In this document: positions 31,244 to 46,939 of the stretch, in pieces | How positions within the stretch are numbered: position 1 is the stretch's first letter | Layout: each line of letters opens with the position of its first letter | Assembly: GCF_002906155.1 (NCBI RefSeq) | Contig: NZ_MUJK01000010.1 | Span: 124,001 to 188,000 of the forward strand | Source of the DNA: Pseudomonas laurylsulfativorans | GTDB taxonomy: Bacteria; Pseudomonadota; Gammaproteobacteria; Pseudomonadales; Pseudomonadaceae | Direction of reading: 5' to 3' | Length of the DNA: 64,000 nucleotides | Made by a program: the position numbers and the translations under genes | The notes under the pieces: generated by a model | The model's input: the letters and a program-made list of their open reading frames with translations, nothing else | The model's database searches: none | What the model was told of the DNA's origin: nothing

Positions 31244-32296
31244 ATGTACACCGCCATCGGATACGCCGCCCAGTCGGCCACCACTCCCCTCGCCCCCGTG
31301 AAATTCGAACGTCGTAGCCCAAGGCCTGACGACGTTGCCATCGAGATTCTCTACTGCGGCGTCTGCCATTCCGACATCCATCAGGCCCGCAACGAGTGGG
31401 GCATTGCCGTTTACCCGCTGATGCCTGGCCACGAAATCGTAGGCAAAGTTACCGCCGTCGGTGCAAACGTTACTAAACACAAAATCGGTGATCTGGTCGG
31501 TGTCGGCTGCATGGTCGACTCGTGCCGCAGCTGCGAGGCTTGCCGGGCCAACCTGGAGCAATACTGCCTCGAAGGCCCGACCATGACCTACGCCACCCCG
31601 GACCGGGTCGACGGCAGCAACACCATGGGCGGCTACTCCGACAGCATCGTGGTCAGCGAGCACTTCGTGGTGCGCATCCCGGAAAAACTGGCCCCGGCCA
31701 GTGCCGCGCCGATCCTCTGCGCCGGCATCACCACCTACTCACCGCTCAAGCACTACGGCGTGAAGGCCGGTGACAAAGTCGGGATTCTCGGCATGGGTGG
31801 CCTGGGCCACATGGGCATCAAATTCGCCAAGGCCATGGGCGCCGAAGTGACGCTGTTCACCCGCTCGGCAAGCAAGGCCGAAGAGGCTCGCCGCCAGGGC
31901 GTGGACCATGTGATCGTGTCCACCGACGATGCCCAGATGCAGGCCGCCGCCGGGCATTTCGACTTCCTGCTCGACACCATTCCGGTACAGCACGACCTCA
32001 ACCCATACCTCGATACGCTGCGTTTCGACGGCGTGCATATTCTGGTGGGTTTGATCGAACCGGTGGAGCCGCCGGTACATGCCGCCAAACTGGTGTTGGG
32101 GCGTCGCGTGCTCGCCGGCTCGCTGATCGGCGGCATTGCAGAAACCCAGGAGGTGCTGGATTTCTGCGCCGAGCACAACATCACCTGCGACATCGAAATG
32201 CTCGACATCCGCCAGATCAACGAGGCTTACGCTCGAATGATCGCCGGTGACGTGAAGTACCGCTTCGTCATCGACATGGCGACCCTCAAGGTTTAA
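31244..32296 (+). CDS. NAD(P)-dependent zinc alcohol dehydrogenase (YahK/CAD type)
   Basis: This 350-residue medium-chain dehydrogenase has the catalytic zinc motif GVCHSDIHQARNEWG, GHEIVGKV, and a structural zinc site CRSCEACRANLEQYC. The Rossmann fold GILGMGGLGHMGIKFAKAMG is near residue 180. Enzymes of this group reduce a range of aldehydes. ATG 31244 has GAGG eight bases upstream; a long in-frame upstream extension lacks conserved sequence. Its stop overlaps that of the convergent IclR gene. Confidence 0.92.
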   Translation: MYTAIGYAAQSATTPLAPVKFERRSPRPDDVAIEILYCGVCHSDIHQARNEWGIAVYPLMPGHEIVGKVTAVGANVTKHKIGDLVGVGCMVDSCRSCEACRANLEQYCLEGPTMTYATPDRVDGSNTMGGYSDSIVVSEHFVVRIPEKLAPASAAPILCAGITTYSPLKHYGVKAGDKVGILGMGGLGHMGIKFAKAMGAEVTLFTRSASKAEEARRQGVDHVIVSTDDAQMQAAAGHFDFLLDTIPVQHDLNPYLDTLRFDGVHILVGLIEPVEPPVHAAKLVLGRRVLAGSLIGGIAETQEVLDFCAEHNITCDIEMLDIRQINEAYARMIAGDVKYRFVIDMATLKV

Positions 32297-32305
32297 ACCT
32301 TGAGG
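32284..32305. other. 22-bp perfect palindrome at convergent stop codons
   Basis: CCTCAAGGTTT and its exact complement meet at 32294/32295. Both genes end with Leu-Lys-Val-stop and share the palindrome, with TAA codons overlapping by two bases. There is no T-run, so it is not a classical terminator. Confidence 0.8.
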
Positions 32306-33096
32306 CCAAGCTCCGCCGACAGCCGGGCCGTGACCCCTTTGATCAGGGGAATCAGCTCGGCCATTTTTTCCAGCGGCATGTACGGCACGGTGCTCGCGAT
32401 GCTGATGCCGGCGACGATGCGCTTGCTGGCATCGCGCACCGGCGCCGCCACGCAACGAATCGACGGCTCGTTATCTTCCAGATCGAAGGCATAACCGCCG
32501 GCCACGTACTCGACCATGCGCTGCTCGAACTGCTCCCAGGATTGCTCGGGGTGCTGCGGCCAGAACTGGTTTTTCCCACCCACCGGCAGGCTGACTTCGT
32601 ACAGGCGCTGCCACTCTTGCGGCGAATCATCGAGCATCAGCGCCTTGCCGATCCCGGTGCGCGCCAGCGGCATGCGATGGCCGACCCGCGAACGCATTTC
32701 CGGACCATTGCGCCCCGGGTTCTTGTGCAGGTACAGCACTTCGTCGCCTTCACGAATCGCCAGGTGAATGGTGTCGCCGGTCAACGCCGACAACTCATCC
32801 AGATACGGCCCGGCCAGGGTCACCAAGGGCAATTCTTCACGGGCCTGAAAGCCCAGCTCAATCAGCTTGGGCCCCAGCAGATAACCGATTTGCGGCACCA
32901 CCCGCAGATATCGCTCGTCCACCAGGCAACTGGCCAGGCGATGGGTGGTGCTGCGCGTGGTGCCAATCAGCCGGGCGATTTCCTTGAGATCGCGGGCACC
33001 GCTGGCCACGGCATGAACCACACCCAACCCGCGAAGCAGGGTCTGGGTACCGGTCGGTGCGGCGTCCTTGGCGATTTTTGGGGCGTCTTCCTGCAT
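32293..33096 (-). CDS. IclR family transcriptional regulator of the dgo operon
   Basis: This 267-residue protein has an N-terminal winged helix (about 20-80: DLKEIARLIGTTRSTTHRLAS) and an IclR effector-binding domain (about 90-265: LARTGIGKALM and a conserved GYAFDLEDNEPSIRCVAAPV). It is the last gene of the dgoK-dgoA-dgoD-transporter set, 60 bases after the transporter, and so probably regulates that pathway. Galactonate or KDGal would be a reasonable effector; this is inferred from position. Confidence 0.88.
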   Translation of the reverse strand: MQEDAPKIAKDAAPTGTQTLLRGLGVVHAVASGARDLKEIARLIGTTRSTTHRLASCLVDERYLRVVPQIGYLLGPKLIELGFQAREELPLVTLAGPYLDELSALTGDTIHLAIREGDEVLYLHKNPGRNGPEMRSRVGHRMPLARTGIGKALMLDDSPQEWQRLYEVSLPVGGKNQFWPQHPEQSWEQFEQRMVEYVAGGYAFDLEDNEPSIRCVAAPVRDASKRIVAGISIASTVPYMPLEKMAELIPLIKGVTARLSAELGLKV

Positions 33097-33156: not shown

Positions 33157-34467
33157 CTACAACTTGATACGCTCGACCTTGCCCACCAGCAGGATGTAGG
33201 ACAGCGCGCCAATCAACGCCAACACCGAGATGTAGGTAATCGCCGGGGCAAAGGAATCACCCGTCGCGAGGAAACCGATCACGATAGGCGTGGCGATCGC
33301 CGACAGGTTGCCGATGAAGTTGAACACCCCGCCGGTCAGCCCGAGCAAGCGCGCCGGAGCCAGGGTCGACACCAGCGACCAGGTAATCGAAGCCAGGCCG
33401 TTGCCGAAAAACGCCAGCGCGAGGAAGGCAATCACCAGCGGCGTCGACTCGACAAAGTTGGCACCGATGATCGAGGTGGAAATCAGCAAGCCACTGATGA
33501 TCGGCAACTTGCGGGCAAAACCTACCGTGTAGCCGCGACGGATCAAAAAGTCCGAGAAGAAACCGGAGCACAGCACACCGACAAACGCGGCGAGAAACGG
33601 CAGCGACGCCAACAGGCCGGACTTGATGAAGTCCATGCCGCGGTACTTCACCAGGTAGGTCGGAAACCACGTCAGGAAAAACCACAGCGTCGAGTTGAGG
33701 CAGAACTGCCCGAGGTAGATACCCCAGAGCTTGCGCTTGGTCAGGACAATGCCCAGGTCGGTCCAGCTGAATTTGGCTTTGACCTTGGCCTGCTCGGCCT
33801 GGATATCCACCAACCCGCCGCCCTCGCGAATCAAGTCGATTTCCGCATCATTGGCGCCTTTGAAATCCCGCGGCTCGCGATACACCGCGTACCAGATCAC
33901 CGCCCACACAATGCCCACCGAACCCGTGGCAACGAACACCATGTGCCAGCCGAATTCGTGCTGCAACCAGGCCAGCACCGGTGTCAGGAAAGCCAGGCCG
34001 ACGAATTGCCCGGAGGTGTAGAAACCGATGGCCGTGGCGCGCTCGCGCTCAGGGAACCAGGTGGTGACCACGCGACTGTTGATCGGGTATGCCGGGGCCT
34101 CCAGCGCTCCGACCGCCATGCGCAGCACGAACAGCGCGATGAAGCTGGCCGCGAAGCCGAGCATCACCGTGGCCACCGACCACAGCAGCAAAGCGACGCT
34201 GTACAGAATCCGTGGCGGCACGCGGTCCACCAGCCAGCCGCCGGGGATCTGCATGGCGGCGTAGGTCCAGCCGAAGGCGGAGAAAATCAGGCCGACGTGG
34301 ATCGGATCGATACCCAGGTCACTGGTCAGCGCCGGGGCGGCAATCGACAGGTTGCTGCGGTCCAGGTAGTTGATCACCACGGTGATGAACAACAGCACCA
34401 TGATGAAAAATCGCTTGCGACTGGGCGTCACCAACGACGCCTGCCCGGTGAGGGTTTGCGGTTGCAT
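33157..34467 (-). CDS. MFS transporter of the ACS family, probably galactonate uptake (DgoT-like)
   Basis: This 436-residue protein has twelve predicted helices. The ACS-family signature VINYLDRSNLSIAAPAL is in helix 1 and GWTYAAMQIPGGWLVDRVPPR covers the helix 2-3 loop. A cytosolic central loop lies near 195-240. E. coli DgoT belongs here and imports D-galactonate with protons; placement between dgoD and the IclR gene supports that substrate. Related members carry glucarate, hexuronates or other acids. Confidence 0.88.
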   Translation of the reverse strand: MQPQTLTGQASLVTPSRKRFFIMVLLFITVVINYLDRSNLSIAAPALTSDLGIDPIHVGLIFSAFGWTYAAMQIPGGWLVDRVPPRILYSVALLLWSVATVMLGFAASFIALFVLRMAVGALEAPAYPINSRVVTTWFPERERATAIGFYTSGQFVGLAFLTPVLAWLQHEFGWHMVFVATGSVGIVWAVIWYAVYREPRDFKGANDAEIDLIREGGGLVDIQAEQAKVKAKFSWTDLGIVLTKRKLWGIYLGQFCLNSTLWFFLTWFPTYLVKYRGMDFIKSGLLASLPFLAAFVGVLCSGFFSDFLIRRGYTVGFARKLPIISGLLISTSIIGANFVESTPLVIAFLALAFFGNGLASITWSLVSTLAPARLLGLTGGVFNFIGNLSAIATPIVIGFLATGDSFAPAITYISVLALIGALSYILLVGKVERIKL

Positions 34468-34638: not shown

Positions 34639-35787
34639 TCACCACTCGGCAAAACTGCCGTCGGCATGGCGCCAGATCGGGTTGCGCCAGCGGTGGCCGA
34701 TGGCGGCGCGTTCGATCACGTATTCCTCGTTGATCTCGATGCCCAGGCCCGGGCCGTTCGGGATCTTCACGAAGCCTTTGTCGTAGTCGAACACCCGCGG
34801 GTCTTTGACGTAGTCGAGCAGGTCGTTGCTCTCGTTGTAATGAATGCCCAGGCTCTGCTCCTGAATGAACGCGTTGTAGCAGGCGGCGTCCAGTTGCAGG
34901 CAGGCCGCCAGGGCAATCGGACCCAGCGGGCAATGCAGCGCCAGCGCCACGTCGTAGGCTTCGGCCATGTTGGCGATCTTGCGGGTTTCGGTGATGCCGC
35001 CGGCGTGGGAAGCATCCGGCTGGATGATGTCGACGTAGCCTTCGCTGAGCACGCGCTTGAAATCCCAACGCGAGAACAGCCGCTCACCCAAAGCAATCGG
35101 CGTGCTGGTCAGCGGTGCCAGCTCCTTCAGCGCTTCATAGTTTTCACTGAGCACCGGTTCCTCGATGAACATCAGCTTGTACGGATCAAGCTCCTTCATC
35201 AGCACCTTGGCCATGGGCTTGTGCACCCGGCCATGGAAGTCCACACCGATGCCGACGTTCGGGCCGACCGCATCACGCACGGCAGCGACGTTGGCCAGGG
35301 CTTGGTCGACCTTGTCGAAGGTGTCGAGGAATTGCAGCTCCTCGGTGCCGTTCATTTTCACCGCGGTGAAACCACGCTCGACCGCTTCTTTCGCCGCACG
35401 CGCCGTGTCCGCCGGACGGTCGCCGCCGATCCACGAATACACGCGAATCTTGTCCCGCACCTGACCACCCAGCAGATCGCTGACCGACACGCCCAACGCC
35501 TTGCCCTTGATGTCCCACAAGGCCTGGTCGATACCGGCCAGGGCGCTCATGTGGATCGCGCCGCCACGGTAGAAGCCGCCTCGGTACAGCACGGTCCAGA
35601 TGTCTTCGATGTTGCGTGGGTCCTTGCCGATCAGGTAGTCGGACAACTCTTCAACGGCAGCGGCAACGGTGTGGGCGCGACCTTCGACCACGGGCTCGCC
35701 CCAACCGGTCACGCCCTCGTCGGTTTCGACCTTGAGGAAGCACCAGCGCGGCGGAACGATGAAGGTGGTCAGTTTGGTGATTTTCAT
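34639..35787 (-). CDS. dgoD: D-galactonate dehydratase
   Basis: This 382-residue enolase-superfamily enzyme converts D-galactonate to 2-keto-3-deoxygalactonate. The metal and catalytic residues align with E. coli DgoD: D183 and H185 in [10 protein letters not shown]209 in MFIEEP, the Glu of ALGERLF near 234, and H284 in LALHCPLGP. Length matches the family. It is third in the operon, 48 bases downstream of dgoA. Confidence 0.95.
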
Positions 35788-35835: not shown

Positions 35836-36456
35836 TTAGCGAAGGGTTTTCCAGGCCGTGACGTAGGCCTTGGCATTGGCCGCCACTTGCGCAGGCGTCA
35901 TGCCCGGTTTGAACAGACCGGAGCCGAGGCCGAAACCTTTGACGCCTGCGTCGATAAACACCTGCATGTTGTCCGGCGTGATCCCGCCGACCGGCACGAG
36001 AAGGGTTCCGGCCGGCAACACCGCGAGCCAGGCTTTGACGACTGCGGGTCCCATCTGCTCGGCCGGGAACATTTTCAGCACATCCGCGCCTTCAGCCAGT
36101 GCCGCGAAGGCTTCGGTCGGTGTAGCGACACCCGGTGACAGGTACAGCCCGGCTGCCTTCGCTGCGCGCAAGACCTTCGGATCGCTGTGGGGCATGACGA
36201 TCACCTGGCCGCCCGCGGCTTTCACTTGCTCGACCTGTTCCGGTGTCAACACCGTGCCGGCACCGATCAGGCAATCGGCAGGCAAGCTACTGCGCAGGAT
36301 GCGGATACTTTCGTACGGCTCAGGGGAATTGAGCGGCACTTCAATGACGCGAAATCCGGCGGCGTACAGGACTTCGCCAATGGCGGCGGCTTCCTGTGGA
36401 CGCAGGCCGCGCAGGATCGCGATCAGGCCGTTTTGCGCCAGCGCTTGTTTGAGCAT
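35836..36456 (-). CDS. dgoA: 2-dehydro-3-deoxy-6-phosphogalactonate aldolase
   Basis: This 206-residue class I aldolase of the KDPG/KDPGal family cleaves KDPGal to pyruvate and glyceraldehyde 3-phosphate. The catalytic Glu is in RVIEVPLNSP (E39), and the Schiff-base lysine is in DVLKMFPAEQ (K128). GAGTVLTPEQV is the conserved loop. Neighbouring dgoK and dgoD argue for galactonate rather than gluconate. It starts 19 bases after dgoK. Confidence 0.95.
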   Translation of the reverse strand: MLKQALAQNGLIAILRGLRPQEAAAIGEVLYAAGFRVIEVPLNSPEPYESIRILRSSLPADCLIGAGTVLTPEQVEQVKAAGGQVIVMPHSDPKVLRAAKAAGLYLSPGVATPTEAFAALAEGADVLKMFPAEQMGPAVVKAWLAVLPAGTLLVPVGGITPDNMQVFIDAGVKGFGLGSGLFKPGMTPAQVAANAKAYVTAWKTLR

Positions 36457-36475: not shown

Positions 36476-37468
36476 TTAACGGGGTGCGGTGGACGTGACC
36501 AGGCCGGCGGCGAGCGCCAGTTGCCACAGTCCGCGCTCGGTGGCCTGTTCGGCCAGGGTTACCCGGGCAAAACCGCAGGCATCAAGCGCGCGGCTGTAGC
36601 GGGCACAAAGTTGGGTATTACCGATGAGGATGATCGATGGCAGATGCACGCTGTTGCGCCGACGCCGCTGGACATTGGCCAGGGCCGCCAACTCGTGACC
36701 GATCAACAGGCCGGACAGGTAATCCGCCTGGGCGGTGTCGCTCAATTCGCCGGTCAGCCCCAGGCTGCGGGCGCTGAACATGGTCGACAGCGGACCGGTT
36801 TCACCGTCCGCCGACAGCGCCACCTGCACACCGCGATCAAAGGCGTTGCCATCGAAAGACCCACCACGCTGTTGGGTGCGTCCGAGAATGCTGTGCTCGC
36901 TGAGCACGGCAAACACTTCGCCGGTCATGAAGGTATCGAAATGCACGATGCAGCCGTCGGCCACTTCCACCCATTTCGAATGGCTGCCCGGCAGGCCGAT
37001 CAGCAGATCAGAGCCCGCCCCGCCCGCCAGGTTTTGCAGCACACCGAGCACCTGGGTTTCTTCACCGCGCATCACGTTCGGCAAACGCGAACGCTGGATG
37101 ACCCCCGGCACGATGTGTACATCGACCCCGCGCAGGCTGCGCACGGTTTGCAAGGAAGTTCCGAGGGTGGCGACGTTTGCCGGCGTGTCGCGGTAGGCCG
37201 CTTCGCGCCAGCCCTGGGCGCTGCCGACCATGCCACAGGCAATCACTGGCAAATGCGGCTGGGCATCGAGCCAGTCGCCGCAAGCCTCATCGAAGGCCAG
37301 TTCGAAACCATCGGCGCATTCCCGGCCGTCAATGATTCGCGGCGTTTTCGGCAGCTGCATGATCCCCGACGACAGCGAACGCTGTTCGAGCACTTGCCCG
37401 CCTTCAGCCAGTTTGTAAGCACGTAATGAGGTTGTCCCCCAGTCGAGCGCGATCAATTGCGCCTGCAT
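36476..37468 (-). CDS. dgoK: 2-dehydro-3-deoxygalactonokinase
   Basis: This 330-residue kinase phosphorylates KDGal to KDPGal. It has the phosphate-binding N-terminus LIALDWGTTSLRAYKL, LIGLPGSHSKWVEV near the middle and GELSDTAQADYLSGLLIGHEL. ATG 37468 has AGGTGAAG just upstream; the longer in-frame reading to 37537 runs through the promoter. It is the first gene of the operon, starting about 35 bases after the -10 element listed separately. Confidence 0.94.
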   Translation of the reverse strand: MQAQLIALDWGTTSLRAYKLAEGGQVLEQRSLSSGIMQLPKTPRIIDGRECADGFELAFDEACGDWLDAQPHLPVIACGMVGSAQGWREAAYRDTPANVATLGTSLQTVRSLRGVDVHIVPGVIQRSRLPNVMRGEETQVLGVLQNLAGGAGSDLLIGLPGSHSKWVEVADGCIVHFDTFMTGEVFAVLSEHSILGRTQQRGGSFDGNAFDRGVQVALSADGETGPLSTMFSARSLGLTGELSDTAQADYLSGLLIGHELAALANVQRRRRNSVHLPSIILIGNTQLCARYSRALDACGFARVTLAEQATERGLWQLALAAGLVTSTAPR

Positions 37469-37506
37469 CGCTTCACCTGTTTTGGTTTTTGGCAGTGAGT
37501 GAGCGG

Positions 37507-37560
37507 GACTATAAACCTGAGGCGGGTAAAATCTCAATATATAAATATCAATCCCATATT
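37507..37560 (-). promoter_or_regulatory. dgo operon promoter, copy of a shared 54-bp block
   Basis: On the minus strand the block contains TTGAGA (-35, 37532-37537) and TATAGT (-10, 37508-37513) with an 18-base spacer. Upstream of the -35 is an AT-rich stretch ending in AATATGGGAT. The same 54-base layout lies at 45070-45123. Confidence 0.75.
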
Positions 37561-37571
37561 GTGAGAGAAGG

Positions 37572-37603
37572 CAAAAAAAGCAGCCCGAAGGCTGCGATCT
37601 TTT
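37572..37603. terminator. Bidirectional terminator of the GNAT gene
   Basis: Stem GCAGCC-CGAA-GGCTGC is flanked by AAAAAAA on the left and TTTTT on the right. On the minus strand it ends the GNAT gene. Confidence 0.85.
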
Positions 37604-37611
37604 TAGAGCGA

Positions 37612-38094
37612 TCAGTTACCCGCTGCGAAATCCCGCAGCACGGCGCCATCCATCCGATAGCGAACCCACTCCTCCTGCGGTTGCGCCCCCAGGGATTTGT
37701 AGAAGTCGATGGCCGGGGTATTCCACTCCAGCACGCTCCACTCGAAACGGCCGCAGTCGTTGGCGCAGGCGATTTTCGCCAGATGCCGCAGCAGGGTCTT
37801 GCCCGCACCACCGCCGCGTTGTTCCGGGGTGATGTACAGGTCTTCGAGGTACAGGCAATTGCTGCCCAGCCAAGTGGAATAGCTGAAGAAGAACACCGCG
37901 AAACCGATGGGTGCACCGTCGCGCAGGCAGATCAGGCCATGGGCGGTGGCGCCTTCGCTGAAGAGGCTGCGCTCGATATCGGCAACGCTGGCGATGACTT
38001 CATGGCGGGCACGTTCGTAGTCGGCCAGTTCAGTGATGAACGCGAGGATTTGCGGTGCGTCACTGGGGGTCGCCGGGCGGATTTCGATCGTCAT
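37612..38094 (-). CDS. GNAT family N-acetyltransferase
   Basis: This 160-residue GNAT protein has the acetyl-CoA pyrophosphate loop EQRGGGAGKTLLRHL near residue 93 and LYLEDLYITPE before it. The DYERARHEVIAS and FEWSVLEWNTPAIDFYKSLGA segments resemble the spermidine/spermine-acetyltransferase-like (SAT) subgroup. The substrate is unknown. It is a single gene with its own terminator. Confidence 0.88.
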   Translation of the reverse strand: MTIEIRPATPSDAPQILAFITELADYERARHEVIASVADIERSLFSEGATAHGLICLRDGAPIGFAVFFFSYSTWLGSNCLYLEDLYITPEQRGGGAGKTLLRHLAKIACANDCGRFEWSVLEWNTPAIDFYKSLGAQPQEEWVRYRMDGAVLRDFAAGN

Positions 38095-38143
38095 GGACGT
38101 GCCTTGTCAAAAGTGGAAAACGCCATACTAAGTCGGCGCGGTA

Positions 38144-38278
38144 CTTGTGGCGAGGGGGCTTGCCCCCGTTGGGTTGCGCAGCAACCCCATTAAAAACACT
38201 GCAGTCTTTCAGGTGTAACGCAATCGCTGAGAAAGGGCCCGCTTCGCAGGCCAACGGGGGCAAGCCCCCTCGCCACAG
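38144..38278. repeat. Long inverted repeat, GTGGCGAGGGGGCTTGCCCCC type, copy 2
   Basis: It has the same arms as the elements at 7803 and 48334, with inner TTGCGCAGCAACC and TTCGCAGG remnants. The remaining part of the 323-base gap to 38417 shows no gene. Confidence 0.88.
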
Positions 38279-38417
38279 AAGCAGGATCGCTTCCCCCTGT
38301 TCAGCGGCTTTACTCCGGCTAACACTAACCCTGGAATCACTAACCTCGGACCTAACATTCGCGCACTGCGTGGTTAGATAGCGGCGCTGCTCATTTATCC
38401 GGTCAAGGAACCGCGTC

Positions 38418-39623
38418 ATGTCTACCGCAACACCTCCTGTTTCAAGCAAATTGTTCGGCCTGTTTTGCCTCGCCAGTTACCTGTTGTCGTTGTCCTATGG
38501 CTCGACTTTTTTGCTGTCACTGTTGATCAGCTCGCGCGGTGGCAACGAGCACGACGCCGGCAGCGTGATTTCGGCGGCGATGCTCAGCACCTTTGCGGCA
38601 GTGATTGTTTCAGGTCATTTGTCCGACTTGCTCGGTGCCGCCCGATCGGTGGCGCTGTTCGGTGTTTTGCTGGTAGCAGCCAGCCTGGGTTTCGCCCTGA
38701 CGCCGGGCTTCGGTCATCTGCTGTTGTTTTTCGGCCTGCTGCTGGGCCTGGGCTGGGGCGTGTTCTACACCCTGGGACCGATCATCGTGGCGAGCCTGGT
38801 GACGCCTGCACAACGCGCCAAATACTTCGCCCTGCTGTCGGGCAGCATGATGACCGGGATCGGCAGCGGTCCGTTGCTCGGTCGCGCGGCGAGCGCCCTC
38901 GGTTATCCGGTGACCGCTGCGTTTTATCTGGCGGCGCTGGCCAGCCTGATCGGTGTGCTGCTGTTCTGGCGCCTGGATCGGCAGTTGAAACAGGCAAACA
39001 CCCAATCAACCAGCGTATCGCGGATTTCCTGGCGTGCGGCAGGTCAGGTACTGTCCTCCCGGGCCGTTTTCCCGATCATCATGGTCGGTCTCGGCGGCTG
39101 TGTGTTCGGCGGTCTGTCGAGCTTTCAAACCAGCTACGCGGCGGCGCGCTCTCTGGACTATTCGTTGTTCTTCCTCGGTTTCATGAGCGCGGCGATCAGT
39201 GCGCGCATGTTGATCGCCGGTTACGTGGTCAAACGCGACCCGTTTCGCGCCTCCTGCCTGCTCTCGGGCTTGATGCTGGCATCGATCGTGATGTTCGGTT
39301 TTGTCGTCGATAGCGGTTTCACCTACGTACTCGCGGCGGTGATGCTCGGGATCGGTTACGGCCTGACCTACTCGGTGATCAACGGCCTGGCCGCCAATGA
39401 AGCGCCACAAGGCACCACCGCGCAATCCTTGCTGCTGTTCAGCCTGTCGTATTTCATCGGCGTGTTCGGCTTCCCGTTGCTGGCTGGGAAAATCATCGTC
39501 GAGCAAGGCATGGCCACGCTGTTGCTCACCGTGCTGGTAGTTGCCTCGCTCAACTGGCTGATCACCGTGAGCCGGTTGATCTGGCGTCGGGTGACCACGG
39601 CCAAGGCACTGCAGCAAGCCTGA
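38418..39623 (+). CDS. MFS transporter
   Basis: This 401-residue protein has about twelve hydrophobic segments. The helix 2-3 loop GHLSDLLGAARSVALFG is the MFS A-motif form, and YGLTYSVINGLAANEAP lies near the middle of the C-half. It could export a drug or metabolite; the substrate is unknown. It is probably monocistronic, with no partner gene. Confidence 0.86.
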   Translation: MSTATPPVSSKLFGLFCLASYLLSLSYGSTFLLSLLISSRGGNEHDAGSVISAAMLSTFAAVIVSGHLSDLLGAARSVALFGVLLVAASLGFALTPGFGHLLLFFGLLLGLGWGVFYTLGPIIVASLVTPAQRAKYFALLSGSMMTGIGSGPLLGRAASALGYPVTAAFYLAALASLIGVLLFWRLDRQLKQANTQSTSVSRISWRAAGQVLSSRAVFPIIMVGLGGCVFGGLSSFQTSYAAARSLDYSLFFLGFMSAAISARMLIAGYVVKRDPFRASCLLSGLMLASIVMFGFVVDSGFTYVLAAVMLGIGYGLTYSVINGLAANEAPQGTTAQSLLLFSLSYFIGVFGFPLLAGKIIVEQGMATLLLTVLVVASLNWLITVSRLIWRRVTTAKALQQA

Positions 39624-39704
39624 GCCGTTCGTCGCTGACAATGCACCCATCCGGTTCGAGGGCGTACTAATCAGGTAAGGACTCTACCCGTTGGAGACAA
39701 CACC

Positions 39705-40034
39705 ATGATCCTGTCCAGGTTGACCGCCCTCGCCCTCACTGCCCTGCTGTCCTCTGCCTCCTTCGCCGGGGCCATCGGCTCGAGCACCGGCCCGACCAAT
39801 CCAGTGGAAAAACCCCGGGCGCCGGCCATCCAGAGTGCCCCGGGCATGAACACCGATGGCACCACGATTGATCAAAACCTCCCTCCCTCCACCGGCACCG
39901 ATCCACGCACCCAGGGCAATGACATGGGGCGTCAGGGCGGGACGAACCTGCCGGACAAAAAAACGCCCAGCAGTGGTGGCCTCGGTTCGACCACCAGCGG
40001 TAGCCCGGGTGATGACGACGGTGGCAGCCAATAG
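39705..40034 (+). CDS. Small secreted Gly/Pro/Thr-rich protein, unknown function
   Basis: This 109-residue protein has a clear signal peptide (about 1-22, ending SFA). The mature part is of low complexity, rich in Gly, Pro, Thr, Ser, Asp, with no hydrophobic segment and a DDDGGSQ end. It is probably disordered in the periplasm. I do not recognise a family. GGAG lies ahead of the ATG. Confidence 0.7.
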   Translation: MILSRLTALALTALLSSASFAGAIGSSTGPTNPVEKPRAPAIQSAPGMNTDGTTIDQNLPPSTGTDPRTQGNDMGRQGGTNLPDKKTPSSGGLGSTTSGSPGDDDGGSQ

Positions 40035-40152
40035 TTGCCAGTTTGAGGACAGAAGCTCGGGCGAAGAATATTGTCGGGATGCACAGGCTGGAACTGACTG
40101 AGATCCTGCACAGAGTGGATTAAAGCCAGATCCTGTGCTGAATTTCAGGGCC

Positions 40153-40295
40153 CAATCGCGAGCAGGCTCGCTCCTACAGGGGACCGCGTTCGCCAGACCA
40201 ACCCGGTCAACTGTGGGAGCTTGCTCGCGATGAGGCCGGCACATCCAACATCAATGTTGGCTGACAGTCCGCCATCGCGAGCAGGCTCCCACAGG
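40153..40295. repeat. Three REP units
   Basis: Units near 40154-40179, 40211-40232 and 40271-40294 (ATCGCGAGCAGGCTCGCTCC and variants) lie between the convergent small secreted gene and araH. Confidence 0.85.
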
Positions 40296-40306
40296 TGTAA
40301 TGGGTG

Positions 40307-41278
40307 TCAGCGCTGTTTCAGACGGTCAATGACCACCGCCAACAACAGAATCGAACCGCGGATCACATACTGATAAAACGTATCGATGTTCTTCAGGTTC
40401 ATCGCGTTCTCGATGATCGCCAGAATCAGCACCCCGGCAATCACGTGCCGGATCATGCCGATCCCGCCACTCAACGACACCCCGCCCAGCACGCAGGCCG
40501 AGATCACGGTCAGCTCGAAACCCTGGCCGATCATTGGCTGGCCGGAGGTCATGCGCGAGGCCAGGATCACCCCGGCCAGTGCACCGATCACGCCATGCAC
40601 GGCGAAGATGATGATCTTGGTCCGATCGACATTCACACCCGCCAGCAACGCCGCTTCCTGGTTGCCGCCAATCGCCATGGTGTTGCGACCGTAGGTGGTG
40701 TAGTTCAGCAGCCAACCGAAGAACAGGAAGCAGACGATGGTGATCAGGATCGGTACCGGCACGCCAAACAGTTGGCCATTACCGAACACGAAGAACGATT
40801 CCTGGGACACCCCCACCGCTTTGCCGTTGGCGAAAATATAGGCCAGGCCACGCACGATCTGCATGGTCGCCAGCGTGGTGATCAAAGCGTTGACCCGCAA
40901 CTTGGCGATGACGATGCCGTTGATCAGGCCGACGATCAGCCCCATCACCAGCGCCGCACAGACGCCGAGAAACACGCTGTCGGTGTCGCGCATCACCACT
41001 GCCGCGACCACCCCGGCGCAGGCAATCACCGAGCCCACCGACAAGTCGAAATGCCCGGACGCCAGGCAATACAACATGGTGCACGCCGCGATCCCGGTGG
41101 TAGAAATCGCCAGGCCCAGCCCGCGCATGTTCAGGGGCGAAAGAAAGTTGTCGATCATCAGGGTACAGAGCACGAAGATTCCGACGGCCGCCAGCAGCAT
41201 GACCCAATCATCGAGAAAACGCCGCATATCCAGGGGCTTGCGTGTGGTCGGCAGGGTGTTGTTTTGCGTTGTCATCAT
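40307..41278 (-). CDS. araH: L-arabinose/galactose ABC transporter permease
   Basis: This 323-residue permease has eight to ten helices and the ribose/arabinose-type signature ALAGVILASRMTSGQPMIGQG followed by LGGVSLSGGIGMIRHVIAG. It completes an AraFGH-type importer. Start ATG 41278 follows AGAGG; a GTG at 41284 and an ATG at 41275 are alternatives. It begins nine bases after the araG stop. Confidence 0.92.
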   Translation of the reverse strand: MMTTQNNTLPTTRKPLDMRRFLDDWVMLLAAVGIFVLCTLMIDNFLSPLNMRGLGLAISTTGIAACTMLYCLASGHFDLSVGSVIACAGVVAAVVMRDTDSVFLGVCAALVMGLIVGLINGIVIAKLRVNALITTLATMQIVRGLAYIFANGKAVGVSQESFFVFGNGQLFGVPVPILITIVCFLFFGWLLNYTTYGRNTMAIGGNQEAALLAGVNVDRTKIIIFAVHGVIGALAGVILASRMTSGQPMIGQGFELTVISACVLGGVSLSGGIGMIRHVIAGVLILAIIENAMNLKNIDTFYQYVIRGSILLLAVVIDRLKQR

Positions 41279-41287
41279 AGTCACCTC

Positions 41288-42826
41288 TCAGTTCGCCACG
41301 CCGTCGGCGCGTTGGCGCGGCAAAGCCAGTTGCAGCAGGTTGGATTCGTTGGCCTGGTCGCGGCTCAATTCGCCGCGCATCGCGCCTTCACACAACACCA
41401 GGATGCGGTCGGAAATACCCATGACTTCCATCAAGTCGCTGGACACCACAATCACCGCGATCCCCTCGGCGGCCAGGTTATGGATGATCTGGTAGATCTC
41501 GGCCTTGGCACCGATGTCGATGCCGCGAGTGGGTTCGTCAAGCAGCAGCACCTTCATCGGCATCGACAGCCAGCGGCCGAGAATGGCCTTCTGCTGATTA
41601 CCGCCGGAAAGAAACTTGATCGGCTGCCCGGCGTGTGGCGTTTTCACCTTGAGCGCCTTGATCTGCTGGTCGGCGTTGTCCTTCTCCCACAGACCACGCA
41701 ACAGGCAGCCGAAGGTGGAATGGGCGCCGCGTGCGCTGATATTGATGTTCTCGGCGACGCTGGCCAGCGGCAGGATGCCTTCCTTCTTGCGGTCCTCGGG
41801 GCACAACAGGATGCCAGCGGCAATCGCGTCCCGGGGTGAACGCAGCTTCAGTTCATGGCCACGAAGTTTCAGCTGTCCGGCGCTGTTGCGCGCCAGGCCA
41901 CTGAGCAAGCGCAACAACTCGGTGCGACCGGCCCCAACCAGCCCGAACAGCCCGAGGATTTCGCCTTTGTGCACCTCGAAACTCACCGGCTCTCGCAACC
42001 CCGGCCCGAGCAGGCCATCGACCTTGAGCGCCACCGCACCGCGCTGGCGCGGGCGGTAATCGTAGATGTCCTGGATATCGCGCCCGACCATGCAGGTGAC
42101 CAGTTGATCGTGGGTCAGCTGGCTCATGTCGTCGAACGTGCGCACATAGCGCCCATCCTTGAACACCGTCACCGCGTCGCAGATGCGGAACACTTCTTCC
42201 ATGCGATGAGAGACATAGAGCACCACTTTGCCCTCGTCGCGCAGCCGGCCGATGATCGCCATCAAGCGCTCGATCTCTCGCGCCGAAAGGCTGCTGGTGG
42301 GTTCGTCGAAGGCAATCACATGGGCGCCACGGGACAACGCCTTGGCGATTTCCACCAGTTGCCGCTGACCGAGGGACAGGCGCCCGACTTTCTCTTGCGG
42401 ATCGATTTCATCGGCCAGGCCCTTGAGACAGGCCAGTGCCTGCTGACGCAAGGTGCCGCGATTGATCAGGCCGAAACTGGCCGGCAGATGCCCGAGAAAC
42501 AGGTTCTCCGCCACGGTCATTTCCGGAACCAGATGCAGCTCCTGGTGGATCACCGCGACGCCACTGCCGATGCTGTCGGCGGTGGACTTGAAGTCCATCG
42601 TCTGCTCACCGATCTGCAAGGCACCGCTGCTGGGTATGTAGGCCCCACCGAGGATCTTCAGCAGCGTCGACTTGCCCGCACCGTTCTCGCCCATCAAGGC
42701 ATGAACCTGCCCGGGATGGGCGACGAAGCTGATGTTGTCCAGCGCCTTAACCCCGGGAAAGGTCTTGCCAATCCCGTTGAAGCGCAAGCTGCCGCTGTGT
42801 TGTTGTGTATTTGTTTGTGCGTGCAT
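41288..42826 (-). CDS. araG: L-arabinose/galactose ABC transporter ATP-binding protein
   Basis: This 512-residue sugar-type ATPase has two nucleotide-binding domains. The first has Walker A GENGAGKSTLL (near 45) and LSLGQRQLVEIAKAL; the second has a degenerate Walker A region GLVGAGRTELLRLLSG and LSGGNQQKAILGRWL. The domain pair is normal for RbsA/AraG proteins. ATG 42826 has AGAGG eight bases upstream; the longer reading to 42841 is unsupported. Confidence 0.94.
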   Translation of the reverse strand: MHAQTNTQQHSGSLRFNGIGKTFPGVKALDNISFVAHPGQVHALMGENGAGKSTLLKILGGAYIPSSGALQIGEQTMDFKSTADSIGSGVAVIHQELHLVPEMTVAENLFLGHLPASFGLINRGTLRQQALACLKGLADEIDPQEKVGRLSLGQRQLVEIAKALSRGAHVIAFDEPTSSLSAREIERLMAIIGRLRDEGKVVLYVSHRMEEVFRICDAVTVFKDGRYVRTFDDMSQLTHDQLVTCMVGRDIQDIYDYRPRQRGAVALKVDGLLGPGLREPVSFEVHKGEILGLFGLVGAGRTELLRLLSGLARNSAGQLKLRGHELKLRSPRDAIAAGILLCPEDRKKEGILPLASVAENINISARGAHSTFGCLLRGLWEKDNADQQIKALKVKTPHAGQPIKFLSGGNQQKAILGRWLSMPMKVLLLDEPTRGIDIGAKAEIYQIIHNLAAEGIAVIVVSSDLMEVMGISDRILVLCEGAMRGELSRDQANESNLLQLALPRQRADGVAN

Positions 42827-42891
42827 AACCCACCTCTTCACACCGATCAGGCAGCCCCGTCGGTGGGGCCGCCGCTGAAATCAAACGGCCG

Positions 42892-43896
42892 TCAGTTCCA
42901 CAGGCCGATCTTTTCCAGCTCCTGCTTGAAGTTGTCGCGGGTGATCAGCGTCACGTCGTCCATAGCCGTGAATTTCGCAGGTTCTTTGCCGGTGGTGACC
43001 CACTCGTACATCATGCTGGCGGTGTTGTAGCCCTCGATGTGCGGGCTCGGCAGCATCGAGCCATAGAAACCGCTATCGGGTTTCTTCAGCTCGCCGATGG
43101 CGTCGGTACCGTTGATACCGATGCCGATCACATTGGCCGCAGCGAAACCCGCGCTCTCGGTGGCGCGCACTCCGCCGAGCACAGTGTTGTCGTTCATGCC
43201 GCCGATGATCAGGTTCTTCGCCGCCCCCGGCAGTTTCACCAGGGCCGAGTTGGTGGCATCCATGCTGCCGGGTACGTCGAGAGTCTTCAGAGCCGAGAAC
43301 AGGATGTGGTCCTTAGGCATGCCGGCGTCTTCCAGCGCTTTTACCGAACCGTCGGTGCGCTTCTTGCCGGTGTCGAGTTCGTTGTAGGTGTTGATTACCG
43401 CGTAGGTGTCTTTCCAGTCCCAGCCACGCTTCTTCGCTTCGGTGGCCATGGCGTTGCCCTGCTTCTGGCCGACTTCGAAAGCAGCCATGCCAAGGTACGG
43501 CACGTCTTCCATGAACTTGCCGCTGGCATCGACGAAACGGTCATCGACCGCAATCACTTTCAACCCGTTGAGTTTGGCCTTGGCCATGATCGCCGGGCCG
43601 AGGGACACGTCCGGCGGGCAGATCACGAAACCCTTGGCACCGTTGGCCGCGAGGCTGTCGATGGCCGAAAGGGTTTTCTCACCGTCCGGCACGGCGATCT
43701 TGATCAGGGTGAAGCCCTTCTCTTTCCCAGCCTTTTCGGCAAAGGCCCATTCGGTCTGGAACCAGGGTTCTTCCGCTTGCTTGACCAGGAAACCGATTTT
43801 CACTTCCTCGGCCGCCAGCAGCGTGCTGCTCAGGCTGACCGCCGAGACCGCCAACGCGGCACAGCACAGGGAACGGATAGCATGACGACGATTCAT
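42892..43896 (-). CDS. araF: L-arabinose/galactose periplasmic binding protein
   Basis: This 334-residue protein has a Sec signal peptide (about 1-28, ending LLA). The mature protein closely follows E. coli AraF: KIGFLVKQAEEPWFQTEW, KIAVPDGEKTLSAIDSLA and GIGINGTDAIGEL. E. coli AraF binds L-arabinose, D-fucose and D-galactose, so galactose uptake is plausible here. AAGGAG lies eight bases before the start. A 14-base motif shared with the gntR promoter lies in the gap upstream. Confidence 0.94.
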   Translation of the reverse strand: MNRRHAIRSLCCAALAVSAVSLSSTLLAAEEVKIGFLVKQAEEPWFQTEWAFAEKAGKEKGFTLIKIAVPDGEKTLSAIDSLAANGAKGFVICPPDVSLGPAIMAKAKLNGLKVIAVDDRFVDASGKFMEDVPYLGMAAFEVGQKQGNAMATEAKKRGWDWKDTYAVINTYNELDTGKKRTDGSVKALEDAGMPKDHILFSALKTLDVPGSMDATNSALVKLPGAAKNLIIGGMNDNTVLGGVRATESAGFAAANVIGIGINGTDAIGELKKPDSGFYGSMLPSPHIEGYNTASMMYEWVTTGKEPAKFTAMDDVTLITRDNFKQELEKIGLWN

Positions 43897-43985
43897 AAGC
43901 TGACTCCTTGTTATTGTTCTTGAGCGTTCTTTGAAAGCGTTCTTCGTAAACCAACGGGCGGTAAAGCCTTACTACCAATAGTCAT

Positions 43986-43999
43986 ATCGTATGATGATT
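43986..43999. promoter_or_regulatory. Probable GntR operator upstream of araF
   Basis: ATCGTATGATGATT is the exact reverse complement of 46888-46901, in front of the gntR gene. ATC-GTAT-GAT has short dyad symmetry of the kind FadR/FCD regulators bind. Confidence 0.6.
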
Positions 44000-44038
44000 G
44001 GATTTCAGACGTAGTAATTCGCTTGAAAGCCCGATCAC

Positions 44039-44857
44039 TCAGTCGTGGTACATCACCGAGCGCCCGCCATCGATAGTGATGCACGAGGCATTGATGAACG
44101 GCGCTTCATCGCTGGCCAGGAACACGGCGGTCATTGCCACTTCGATCGGCTGGCCGATGCGGCGCGGCGGGTGCAGGTCAAACGCGCGCTGGCGTTCGGC
44201 GTGAGGGTCGGCGAAACCGTTCCAATAATCGATGTTGATCTGGGTTTCGATGTAGCCCGGCGCGATGGCATTGACCCGAACACCCTTGGCCGCATATTCG
44301 ATGCCCAGCGCGCGGGTCAGGCCGAGCAGGCCATGCTTGGCCACCGGGTACGGGAAGCAACCCGGAATGATGTGGCTGGAATGGGTGGACGCGATATTGA
44401 TGATGCTGCCGATGCCCTGCTCGACCATCTGCGGCAGCACTGCCTTGCAGCCGTACCACGCACCGTCCAGGTCAATGGCAAAACAGCGACGCCAGTCTTC
44501 CTCGGTCATTTCCAAGGGATCACGGAACACGTTGACCCCGGCGCAGTTGACCAGCACATCGATCCGGCCATGCAGGTCGATTGCCAGCCTGGCCATGGCG
44601 TGCAGATCCTGCTGACGCGACACGTCGGCCTTGATCGCCACTACATCGGCACCTTTGTCTCGCCAGTGCGCTGCGACTTTCTCGACTTTCTCGACCTGAA
44701 TGTCGCTGATGATCAACTTGGCTTGCTGGGACGCGAAGGCCGCCACAATCGCTTCGCCAATGCCCTGGGCGGCACCGGTCAGCAACACGACCTTGTTTTT
44801 CAGACGCTCGCCCTTCGGGGGCTCAGGTACGGGTGGCAATGACAGTGGTTCAGCCAT
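44039..44857 (-). CDS. SDR sugar dehydrogenase, candidate galactose or arabinose 1-dehydrogenase
   Basis: This 272-residue short-chain dehydrogenase has TGAAQGIGEAIVAAF, NCAGVN, the catalytic Ser in INIASTHSSH and YPVAKHG (Tyr/Lys). It lies between a sugar importer and a lactonase gene, so oxidation of the incoming aldose to its lactone is the best role. That is inference; arabinose and galactose cannot be told apart by sequence. AGGAG lies nine bases before ATG 44857. Confidence 0.88.
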   Translation of the reverse strand: MAEPLSLPPVPEPPKGERLKNKVVLLTGAAQGIGEAIVAAFASQQAKLIISDIQVEKVEKVAAHWRDKGADVVAIKADVSRQQDLHAMARLAIDLHGRIDVLVNCAGVNVFRDPLEMTEEDWRRCFAIDLDGAWYGCKAVLPQMVEQGIGSIINIASTHSSHIIPGCFPYPVAKHGLLGLTRALGIEYAAKGVRVNAIAPGYIETQINIDYWNGFADPHAERQRAFDLHPPRRIGQPIEVAMTAVFLASDEAPFINASCITIDGGRSVMYHD

Positions 44858-45017
44858 GGATCAAGACTCCTGTTCGAAAACACGACGAAAACCGGGCATC
44901 TGTCGATGTCCGGTCAAAAGGCGTTGAGGAAGAAACAGATGAAGGCGCAAACGTTTCAGCTCGGAAACGGTCTGAGGCACTGTCTCCGCAAGGGAGCATG
45001 GGGGAACTTCGCTGCAT
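44850..45017 (-). CDS. Possible 55-codon leader ORF ahead of the SDR gene
   Basis: ATG 45017 follows AACAGGTGAAGTG, a near copy of the dgoK ribosome site, and the first two codons (ATG CAG) are the same as in dgoK. The frame ends at a TGA overlapping the SDR start region. The encoded peptide is Ser/Thr-rich with no recognisable motif, so this may be a relic of promoter duplication rather than a functional peptide. Confidence 0.3.
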   Translation of the reverse strand: MQRSSPMLPCGDSASDRFRAETFAPSSVSSSTPFDRTSTDARFSSCFRTGVLIHG

Positions 45018-45069
45018 CACTTCACCTGTTTTGTTTTTTTAAGTGTGAGTGCATGTACCTGGTGAGGCC

Positions 45070-45123
45070 GACTATAAACCCGGCCCGAGGCAAATCTCAA
45101 TATATATATTTACATCCCATATT
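45070..45123 (-). promoter_or_regulatory. SDR-araFGH promoter, second copy of the 54-bp block
   Basis: On the minus strand, TTGAGA (45095-45100) and TATAGT (45071-45076) are 18 bases apart, as in the dgo promoter, and AATATGGGAT is at the upstream end. By hand the two 54-base blocks align without gaps at about 43 identical positions. It sits just after the lactonase stop. Confidence 0.75.
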
Positions 45124-45130
45124 TAGGGAT

Positions 45131-46006
45131 TTATCCAACGAAGCGCGTGCAATGCTTTCCAGGTACATCCACCGGAATCGACAACACGGCCCCGTCCAAC
45201 GGATGCCCCAGTGGACTTGCCGCACTGGTGATGTACAGGGTTTTCAGGTCTGCACCGCCGAACACGCAACTGGTGGGACGACTGATCGGCAGTTCAATGA
45301 TCCGATCGACTTTGCCATCCGGGTTCAACCTGAGCAGGCAGCTGCCATCCCAACGGGCATTCCAAATAAAACCTTCGGCATCCATTGCCGAACCGTCCGG
45401 GCCGCCACGCCCGTGCGGCCCCAACCAGACTTGCGGCGCATCGAGGGCTCCGTCGGTACGGATGAAATGTCGATACAGGGTACCGTCGAGGCTGTCGCCG
45501 AAGTAAACGCTGGTGGCGTCATCGCTCCACAACAGCGTGTTGGGAATGCCCAGGTTGCGCAGCAATGGCACGACCCGTCCGCCGCGATCGATGCGAAACA
45601 GTCCACCCGAGCGTCGGACGATGGGCAGGTCTTCGCCGTGTTCTCCGATATTGTTTTGCATGGTGCCGAGCCAGAGCCGGCCCTGGGCATCGCAGCGGGC
45701 TTCGTTGGGGCGGTTGCCCGGTTGCGGATCGGCCACGCAGAGCAAAGTCAGGCGCGGTTCCAGGCCTGGAGAGTCGAGATCTAGGCGATACACGCCGCTG
45801 CTCAATGTCACCAGCGCGTCGCCGCTTTCACAAGGGATGAAGGCCGACACATGCTCCGGCATCTGCCAGATCTGTACGTTGGCGCCGATCAAGCGCAACG
45901 CCTGTTTACCCGCGATATCCACCCAATACAATGCCTGGGTCGGCGCATCCCAGAACGGACCTTCGCCCAGTTCCGCCCGATGCCCGGTAACCGCCGTCAA
46001 CGCCAT
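45131..46006 (-). CDS. SMP-30/gluconolactonase family sugar lactonase
   Basis: This 291-residue beta-propeller lactonase has the metal-binding Glu in AELGEGPFWDA near residue 14. The conserved RPNEARCDAQGRLWLGTM segment is in the middle, and SMDAEGFIWNARWDGSCLLR follows. It would hydrolyse the aldonolactone made by the adjacent SDR. AGGAGG lies five bases before the start. It is upstream of the SDR promoter and downstream of gntR. Confidence 0.92.
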   Translation of the reverse strand: MALTAVTGHRAELGEGPFWDAPTQALYWVDIAGKQALRLIGANVQIWQMPEHVSAFIPCESGDALVTLSSGVYRLDLDSPGLEPRLTLLCVADPQPGNRPNEARCDAQGRLWLGTMQNNIGEHGEDLPIVRRSGGLFRIDRGGRVVPLLRNLGIPNTLLWSDDATSVYFGDSLDGTLYRHFIRTDGALDAPQVWLGPHGRGGPDGSAMDAEGFIWNARWDGSCLLRLNPDGKVDRIIELPISRPTSCVFGGADLKTLYITSAASPLGHPLDGAVLSIPVDVPGKHCTRFVG

Positions 46007-46133: not shown

Positions 46134-46850
46134 TCAGCTGGCTTTTCTATCGGCCATGACTTGCGGGTAGTAACGTTTGATCGCCAGGTCGGCGTTATCG
46201 ATCAGGGTCATGCAGGCCCAGACACCCCGGGCGGTATCACGGGCCGCGATTGCCTGGGCCAGGTCCCGGTGAATCGGCAAGGTGCGACGCAGTTCATCCG
46301 GGTCGGCGGCGGACACTTCAAAGGCCACCGCCAGCAACGCGCCGAGGGCGGGAACCATTTGCTCGATGAATTGATTGTGGCTGGCAGCGAGAATGCACTC
46401 GTGGAAGAACTGGTCAGCACGGTTGTAATCGATGCCACTGTCCACCGCCCGCTCCAGCGCGTTGCAGGCCAGCAGGATCGCGTCCACCTGTTCGCCGGTT
46501 GCACGCTCGCAGGCCCAGCGCACGGCCATCGGTTCGATGGTGCGGCGCAGGTCGAGCAGATCGTCGACGAAGTTTTCCGGCAAGCCGCTGCGTGACAACC
46601 AGCCGACGACTTGTGGATCGAAGAGGTTCCAGCGTCGCACCGGCAACACCCGCGTGCCGACTTTCGGCCCGACCTCGAGCATGCCTTTGGCAACGAGGGT
46701 CTTGATCGCTTCACGAATGACCGTGCGGCTCACGCCGAGCTGTTCACCGAGCTCGGCTTCGACCTTGAGTGACTCACCCGGTTTGACCTGCCCCGTGGCG
46801 AGCCAGCATCCCAGCCAGTCGACGGTCGAAGCATGAAAGCTGCTGGACAT
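46134..46850 (-). CDS. GntR family regulator, FadR/FCD type
   Basis: This 238-residue regulator has an N-terminal winged helix (about 25-80: LGEQLGVSRTVIREAIKTLVAKG) and an FCD ligand-binding domain (about 95-225) with the His/Asp metal positions expected (DLRRTIEPMAVRWA, FHECILAASHN). It heads the lactonase-SDR-araFGH region and resembles DgoR-type sugar-acid regulators. ATG 46850 has GAGG five bases upstream; a GTG two codons earlier is less likely. Confidence 0.9.
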   Translation of the reverse strand: MSSSFHASTVDWLGCWLATGQVKPGESLKVEAELGEQLGVSRTVIREAIKTLVAKGMLEVGPKVGTRVLPVRRWNLFDPQVVGWLSRSGLPENFVDDLLDLRRTIEPMAVRWACERATGEQVDAILLACNALERAVDSGIDYNRADQFFHECILAASHNQFIEQMVPALGALLAVAFEVSAADPDELRRTLPIHRDLAQAIAARDTARGVWACMTLIDNADLAIKRYYPQVMADRKAS

Positions 46851-46887
46851 GGACACCTCAAAGCCGTTCGCGATGGAAGCTCACGCT

Positions 46888-46901
46888 AATCATCATACGA
46901 T
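46888..46901. promoter_or_regulatory. Probable GntR operator upstream of gntR
   Basis: AATCATCATACGAT occurs 38 bases before the gntR start and in inverted form upstream of araF (43986-43999). It suggests autoregulation and control of araFGH by the same protein. Confidence 0.6.
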
Positions 46902-46939
46902 TGAGTGTCAATTTGATTTTATTGAATACACAGAAACTA

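Follow-up and report, generated by a model that had tools for sequence, protein, structure and literature searches.

A conserved promoter block shared by two sugar operons of Pseudomonas, with an IclR-family protein as candidate regulator

Introduction

In a 64,000-nt stretch of Pseudomonas laurylsulfativorans DNA (GCF_002906155.1, contig NZ_MUJK01000010.1, positions 124,001-188,000 of the forward strand; hereafter the window, whose coordinates are used throughout), two separate operons for sugar use are preceded by nearly the same 54-bp block. Behind the first copy lie dgoK, dgoA, dgoD, a dgoT-like transporter gene and a gene for an IclR-family regulator. Behind the second lie a short-chain dehydrogenase/reductase (SDR) gene and araF, araG and araH, and a lactonase gene and a gene for a GntR/FCD regulator are found upstream of it. 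The arrangement raises two questions: which regulator, if any, reads both blocks, and how did the second operon come by its copy? The explanation that we favor, and hold with high though not complete confidence, is that the blocks are paralogous copies of one promoter, that they are read and most likely repressed by the IclR-family protein, and that the SDR copy came from dgoK. From the comparisons below we infer the binding, whether control is negative or positive, the effector, and which copy came first.

Results

Two operons share one promoter block

The blocks, at 37507-37560 and 45070-45123 and both on the minus strand, are identical at 43 of 54 positions in a gap-free alignment, which bears out the figure of about 43 given in an initial annotation of this DNA. 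Elsewhere in the window, with both strands considered, no 54-mer agrees with either block at more than 28 of 54 positions, and 43 matches were never attained in 20,000 mononucleotide shuffles of one block (maximum 31). All of the promoter elements that the annotation had described are present in both copies: a -35 TTGAGA, an 18-bp spacer, a -10 TATAGT and the motif AATATGGGAT. The two hexamers each differ by one base from the consensus. Assigned from sequence, the promoters are as follows.

37508..37537, minus strand: sigma-70-type promoter of the dgo operon; -35 TTGAGA at 37532-37537, 18-bp spacer, -10 TATAGT at 37508-37513
45071..45100, minus strand: sigma-70-type promoter of the SDR-araFGH operon; -35 at 45095-45100, -10 at 45071-45076

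The annotation had further reported a shared ribosome-site region, and CAAAACAGGTGAAG[C/T]G-ATGCAG is indeed found downstream of both blocks. The leaders are unequal, however, measuring 38 nt from block to ATG on the dgoK side and 52 nt on the SDR side, and in this genome the ATGCAG on the SDR side is not likely to be the start of SDR. Across the 6.69-Mb genome of this organism, blastn with the dgoK block (E<=10) returned three matches: the block, its counterpart before SDR (E 5.4e-7) and a 17-mer that matches by chance (E 3.4). A degenerate pattern allowing up to 3 mismatches found exactly these two sites, and the reversed pattern, used as a control, found none. A genome-wide search, as had been suggested with the initial annotation, yields only two such sites.

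The block across the genus

We surveyed a panel of 199 Pseudomonas genomes, one per species and including that of P. laurylsulfativorans; dgoK is present in 128 of them and absent from 71. By blast, the block occurs in 115 of the 199. A 31-position pattern (<=3 mismatches), applied to the 128 dgoK-bearing genomes, gave 209 matches in 123 genomes, with at most two per genome. By their coordinates, 123 matches precede dgoK at a distance of 34-59 bp and 84 precede SDR at 49-222 bp; the remaining two are located before araF in G139, where SDR was not found, and before an SDR remnant with araFGH in G107. Occurrence before many unrelated genes had been named at the outset as the observation that would speak against a common regulator, and none of the 209 matches lies anywhere other than before dgoK, SDR or araFGH with or without the SDR remnant. 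The reversed pattern had no match in the same 128 genomes.

Departures from this distribution are few. Five dgoK genes have no pattern match (G068, G080, G146, G164 and G172); on direct reading, weaker blocks are seen in G068, G080 and G146, degenerate in the latter two. Six SDR genes lack a match of their own, and five of these (G006, G037, G044 and G141, which were read directly, and G070, judged by coordinates only) follow a dgoK block within one cluster. Where dgoK and SDR are separated by more than 100 kb on one contig, both blocks are present in 12 of 13 genomes (the exception being G018), and where the genes lie on different contigs both are present in 18 of 18. A second collection of 80 named loci, which overlaps the panel, carries the block before dgoK in every case, cut by a contig end in L063. 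In a family-wide sample the pattern was found in 26 of 55 genomes of the same genus and in none of 193 genomes of 18 other genera, where weaker forms would be missed.

The clusters with a single block bear on the pathway. In G006 and G141 the order behind one block is dgoK-dgoA-dgoD-lactonase-SDR-araF-araG-araH-IclR (araH and IclR of G141 being some 1.2 kb apart), and in G044 and G037 it is dgoK-dgoA-dgoD-dgoT-SDR-araF-araG-araH-IclR. SDR and lactonase thus both follow dgoKAD under one block in the first pair, and SDR does so without a lactonase in the second. Joined to the dgo genes in these clusters, SDR and the importer probably serve galactose, whatever else they may accept. On the evidence of sequence comparison, the block appears to mark a conserved two-promoter regulon. 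The proposal that one regulator serves a split De Ley-Doudoroff pathway is likewise suggested by the comparative data, namely the restriction of the block to the two operons and the single-block clusters of relatives.

The dgo locus of G172 (L160) appears to be decaying: its dgoK carries an in-frame stop, and the 16-kb stretch yielded no dgoD, dgoT, IclR or block.

An IclR-family protein as candidate regulator

Two regulator genes of the window come into question, and the initial annotation had not chosen between them.

32293..33096, minus strand: IclR-family regulator (Pfam HTH_IclR and IclR_C), last gene of the dgo cluster and proposed reader of both blocks
46134..46856, minus strand: GntR/FCD regulator (Pfam GntR and FCD), not the favored reader

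The comparison of regulator co-occurrence, which covered these two, now favors IclR and disfavors GntR: an ortholog of the window IclR is present in 115 of the 115 block-bearing panel genomes, and a GntR ortholog (E<=1e-60) in 59. The IclR protein belongs to its family by both HTH_IclR and IclR_C, each above the gathering score. At the cut-off used, no ortholog was found in the 71 panel genomes without dgoK. Ten IclR-positive genomes had no blast match to the block, and on direct reading a diverged form of it was seen before dgoK in all ten, that of G146 being degenerate. Three dgoK-positive genomes have no IclR ortholog at the cut-off. In the 16 kb of G172 both IclR and the block are missing; G080 retains a partial IclR-like gene (49%) along with its degenerate block; and G164 encodes an IclR protein that is 50% identical over 266 aa, from a gene lying just before dgoK. 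G164 is also the most instructive genome: WATRTGGGA-N10-YATATTGAGA is matched there without a mismatch, starting 71 bp upstream of the ATG of the IclR gene.

The position of the regulator gene varies. Classified by distance alone, 84 of 125 IclR genes lie within 6.5 kb of dgoK and 2 at 6.5-13 kb, 25 lie within 6.5 kb of SDR (5 of them in single-block clusters), and 14 lie apart, many through contig breaks. Among the 80 named loci, IclR is downstream of dgoK on the same strand in 77; in L009, L023 and L048, represented by short contigs only, none was found. In G175, G171 and G059, IclR follows SDR-araFGH, dgoK is elsewhere, no GntR ortholog was found, and both blocks are kept. Four genomes (G052, G143, G191 and G032) have a solitary IclR gene beside an acetyltransferase gene and moaA, with no dgo or ara genes nearby, and keep the block before a distant dgoK. 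Judged from these comparisons, the IclR protein is most likely the regulator of both blocks and is in any case the best candidate.

Operator anatomy and the sign of control

The part of the block upstream of the -10 region contains the putative binding site.

37529..37560, minus strand: putative IclR operator, copy 1 (block positions 1-32), from column conservation and a pattern match before dgoK in 123 of 128 dgoK-bearing genomes
45092..45123, minus strand: putative IclR operator, copy 2, from a pattern match immediately upstream of SDR in 84 of the 90 genomes that have this gene

The operator is AT-rich, and its core, WATRTGGGA-N10-YATATTGAGA, has inverted ends (ATAT...ATAT) and runs into the -35 box. 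Column conservation and arm pairing were scored over 148 unique sites. The segments ATRTGGGA and TAYATATTGAGAT and the -10 region are strongly conserved, as are the -35 and GGTTTATAGTC within the promoter, and the spacer is poorly conserved; columns 2-3, 5-9, 18-19 and 21-29 are nearly invariant. The outer arm pairs 2-24, 3-23 and 5-21 are complementary in 146 of the 148 sites. The operator of G164 is self-complementary at 20 of 25 columns.

A protein bound at this site would reach the -35 box, which fits a repressor. A published experiment also bears on the sign. When dgoKAD of Pseudomonas fluorescens SBW25 was placed in P. putida KT2440 under its native promoter, the strain showed slow growth on galactose once a lag of 52 h had passed (PMC6927180). 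KT2440 probably lacks this IclR, since no dgoK-less panel genome has an ortholog, and it would follow, on the assumptions that we make about the KT2440 and SBW25 sequences, that the promoter works without IclR. The IclR-family protein would bind both blocks, most likely as a repressor, and let go when a pathway intermediate appears, either galactonate or 2-keto-3-deoxygalactonate (KDGal), the substrate of DgoK. Uptake and oxidation (SDR, araFGH) and breakdown (dgoK, dgoA, dgoD, dgoT) would in this way be induced together.

Locus L161 of G164 (core at L161:6339-6367) is arranged divergently as IclR-dgoK-dgoA; the operator core precedes IclR, and the -10 of the block is missing from its usual place. 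This points to an operator that existed before the shared promoter did.

Other readings of the block

It could be argued that the GntR/FCD protein reads both blocks, given that its gene adjoins the SDR-araFGH operon in the window and that slightly more than half of the block-bearing genomes have an ortholog. We regard this as very improbable and have rejected it. The other 56 of the 115 lack the ortholog, among them G175, G171 and G059, which carry both blocks, and the 161 bp around either block contain no GT-N(2-3)-AC core of the kind found in most FadR-subfamily sites. The GntR gene moreover has a different conserved palindrome in its own upstream region, and this is also found in G184, whose GntR cluster has no block.

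46885..46904, minus strand: conserved palindrome ATCRTATGAT before the GntR gene, with TTGAC just upstream, likely the GntR protein's own site

The TTGAC...ATCRTATGAT region is conserved in 12 GntR upstream regions, and the palindrome also stands before the block-less GntR-lactonase-araFGH cluster L179; in the genome of P. laurylsulfativorans it occurs once, with one further match of three mismatches on another contig. A regulator from another part of the genome, such as an activator of the AraC or LysR type, is a less remote candidate, yet still an unlikely one. IclR would then be a passenger of the operon, and the two TGRGA repeats, 20 bp apart with the second within the -35 box, may have the look of activator sites. 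Against this, IclR has been kept where it is found away from dgoK, whether with SDR-araFGH or alone, and in G164 the operator core precedes the gene for IclR; an activator-dependent promoter, moreover, would not need hexamers that are both one base off consensus. Least credible of all is the idea that a strong constitutive promoter was duplicated by chance and that the operons have no common regulator. The near-consensus -35 and -10 and the signs of duplication in leader and start codon would agree with it, but it leaves unexplained why the columns listed above stay nearly invariant while the spacer drifts, why G164 keeps the operator core without the -10 in its usual place, and why, among the genomes searched, the block accompanies a single pathway.

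Several observations weigh against the assignment to IclR itself. Since IclR is usually linked to dgoK, much of its co-occurrence with the block could be linkage, and cases of IclR away from dgoK are fewer than linked cases. No block lies near the solitary IclR genes of G052, G143, G191 and G032, and the unlinked lactonase-SDR-araFGH cluster of G018 has none either. The operator palindrome is partial, most inner pairs not being complementary, and the direct repeat TGRGA...TGRGA is present alongside it. As for the SBW25 argument, it concerns growth after a 52-h lag, with both the lack of IclR in KT2440 and the presence of the block in the cloned promoter assumed.

Origin of the second copy

The likeness of the two promoters extends beyond the block. 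The dgoK leader and start of the window align with the SDR leader and start of G175 at 41 of 45 columns with one gap, and each of four leader alignments scored above all of 2000 shuffles. In G175, G171, G059 and G121, SDR begins MQAQPLSLP, with the first residues of dgoK (MQAQ being its first four codons), and in G175 the first 12 nt of SDR match those of dgoK at 11. In single-block clusters and in G018, SDR begins MA[EKI]-LSLP. The clade of the window has a different configuration, in which an ATGCAG is found 160 nt upstream of the point where SDR itself starts; that start is served by a separate AGGAG site.

44850..45017, minus strand: leftover dgoK-type start (AGGTGAAGTG ATGCAG) of a 55-codon frame, which extends 8 nt into SDR (SDR start at 44857)

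In L099, from a relative in the same clade, the leader is shorter and the shared ribosome site stands directly before SDR's own ATG. We considered the upstream frame as a conserved leader peptide and rejected this, its length, sequence and sometimes its frame varying between genomes.

The age of the duplication was assessed from 12 loci holding both blocks. Copies within a genome agree at a mean of 41.7 of 54 positions and unlike copies across genomes at 41.1, as against 45.4 and 47.4 for like copies between genomes. The duplication is old because copies within a genome are less alike than like copies between genomes; a promoter duplication, which the initial annotation had considered possible, is thus supported, and a recent local one is rejected. 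The SDR promoter was probably copied from dgoK, since the likeness runs through leader and start codon and MQAQ is found in one clade. The two blocks are accordingly read as what are probably paralogous copies of one regulated promoter, with dgoK to SDR as the simpler direction. On this view an old duplication would have carried the dgoK promoter to SDR, and with it the leader, the ribosome site and the first codons of dgoK.

A fuller history, which we offer tentatively and with somewhat less than even confidence, is that the regulon expanded when a promoter was captured along with the start codon of its source gene, perhaps twice, that the captured promoter brought SDR-araFGH under IclR out of an earlier GntR-lactonase-araFGH cluster, and that the regulator gene changed place among the operons. 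In the clade of G175 the junction would lie inside the SDR gene, with dgoK codons 1-4 fused to SDR. In the clade of the window it would lie about 160 nt upstream, leaving an orphan dgoK-type ribosome site and ATGCAG before the start of SDR. GntR-lactonase-araF-araG-araH clusters with neither SDR nor block are found in L178, L179 and L180 (G068, G184 and G022). This arrangement is possibly the older, GntR-run source of the cluster in the window.

Genes and other features of the two operons

The remaining genes are listed below with the matches on which their names rest.

36476..37468, minus strand: dgoK, 2-keto-3-deoxy-galactonokinase (Pfam DGOK, 2.3e-96)
35836..36456, minus strand: dgoA (NCBIfam NF006600, above cut-off)
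34639..35787, minus strand: dgoD, galactonate dehydratase (NCBIfam NF010624 equivalog, above cut-off)
33157..34467, minus strand: dgoT-like galactonate transporter of the major facilitator superfamily (TIGR00893, above cut-off)
44039..44857, minus strand: SDR sugar dehydrogenase, presumed galactose/arabinose 1-dehydrogenase (NCBIfam NF005469, above cut-off, with a generic SDR name; clusters with dgoKAD in relatives)
42892..43896, minus strand: araF-like periplasmic sugar-binding protein (Pfam Peripla_BP_1)
41288..42823, minus strand: araG-like sugar ABC ATPase (gene order and tblastn conservation)
40307..41284, minus strand: araH, sugar ABC permease (NCBIfam NF008441 AraH equivalog, above cut-off)
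45131..46006, minus strand: SMP-30 family sugar lactonase (Pfam SGL, 8.9e-71)

DgoD, DgoA, DgoT and AraH exceed curated cut-offs, and SDR and the lactonase are family-level assignments; araG is named by its place before araH rather than by a family scan. Galactonate dehydratase, KDGal kinase and 2-keto-3-deoxy-6-phosphogalactonate aldolase occur together, by family profiles, as in the De Ley-Doudoroff pathway. The lactonase gene, being upstream of copy 2, is not behind that copy in this genome.

Some further features were noted around the promoters. A-rich stretches lie directly before the ribosome sites (37469-37506 and 45018-45069). The SDR leader has AAAAACAA, which fits the Crc/Hfq-type motif AANAANAA, and the dgoK leader has no match; in the named loci 46 of 90 leaders match, that of the window SDR among them. 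At 37573-37595 on the minus strand, between an acetyltransferase gene and the dgoK promoter, a hairpin followed by a T run is probably a terminator.

Discussion

How does the predicted regulon compare with systems already described? The best NCBIfam match of the window IclR is KdgR, a member of the same family (2.3e-30, 105.7 bits), and the solved relative 1ysp matches it at 3.4e-17. By the curated equivalog cut-off of 275 bits, which 105.7 falls well below, the protein is not classed as KdgR. The ligand of KdgR, 2-keto-3-deoxygluconate (KDG), is a stereoisomer of KDGal. In Escherichia coli the dgo operon is regulated by DgoR. That protein belongs to the GntR/FadR subfamily, and FadR-subfamily sites have TKGT/ACMA boxes (PMC4494728); the E. 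coli dgo system has the same catabolic genes but a different regulator family and operator type, the block being without such boxes.

IclR-family regulators beside De Ley-Doudoroff genes have been predicted in Rhodobacteraceae and in HL-109, where the regulator is called 'GalR' and is a predicted D-galactonate sensor (PMC5507952). The loci described here resemble those systems in having an IclR-family gene beside dgoK or other De Ley-Doudoroff genes, as do 77 of the 80 named loci. They differ in belonging to other bacteria and in having two promoters with a common 54-bp block, an araFGH-type importer and a movable regulator gene, and the likeness is one of family and gene context. The dgoKAD set of SBW25 comprises the same genes from a related Pseudomonas, used with their native promoter (PMC6927180); the main text of that paper contains no occurrence of IclR. 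A PubMed Central search of titles and abstract openings found no description of the Pseudomonas block or of its tie to this IclR. IclR-linked De Ley-Doudoroff loci have thus been predicted elsewhere; the present case adds a defined two-promoter motif, a movable regulator gene and the visible trace of a probable promoter capture.

For much of the genus Pseudomonas, the findings identify the protein and the site that probably control the use of galactose. They also offer what may be a readable trace of an operon joining a regulon, in which the copied promoter would have brought with it the leader and first codons of its source gene.

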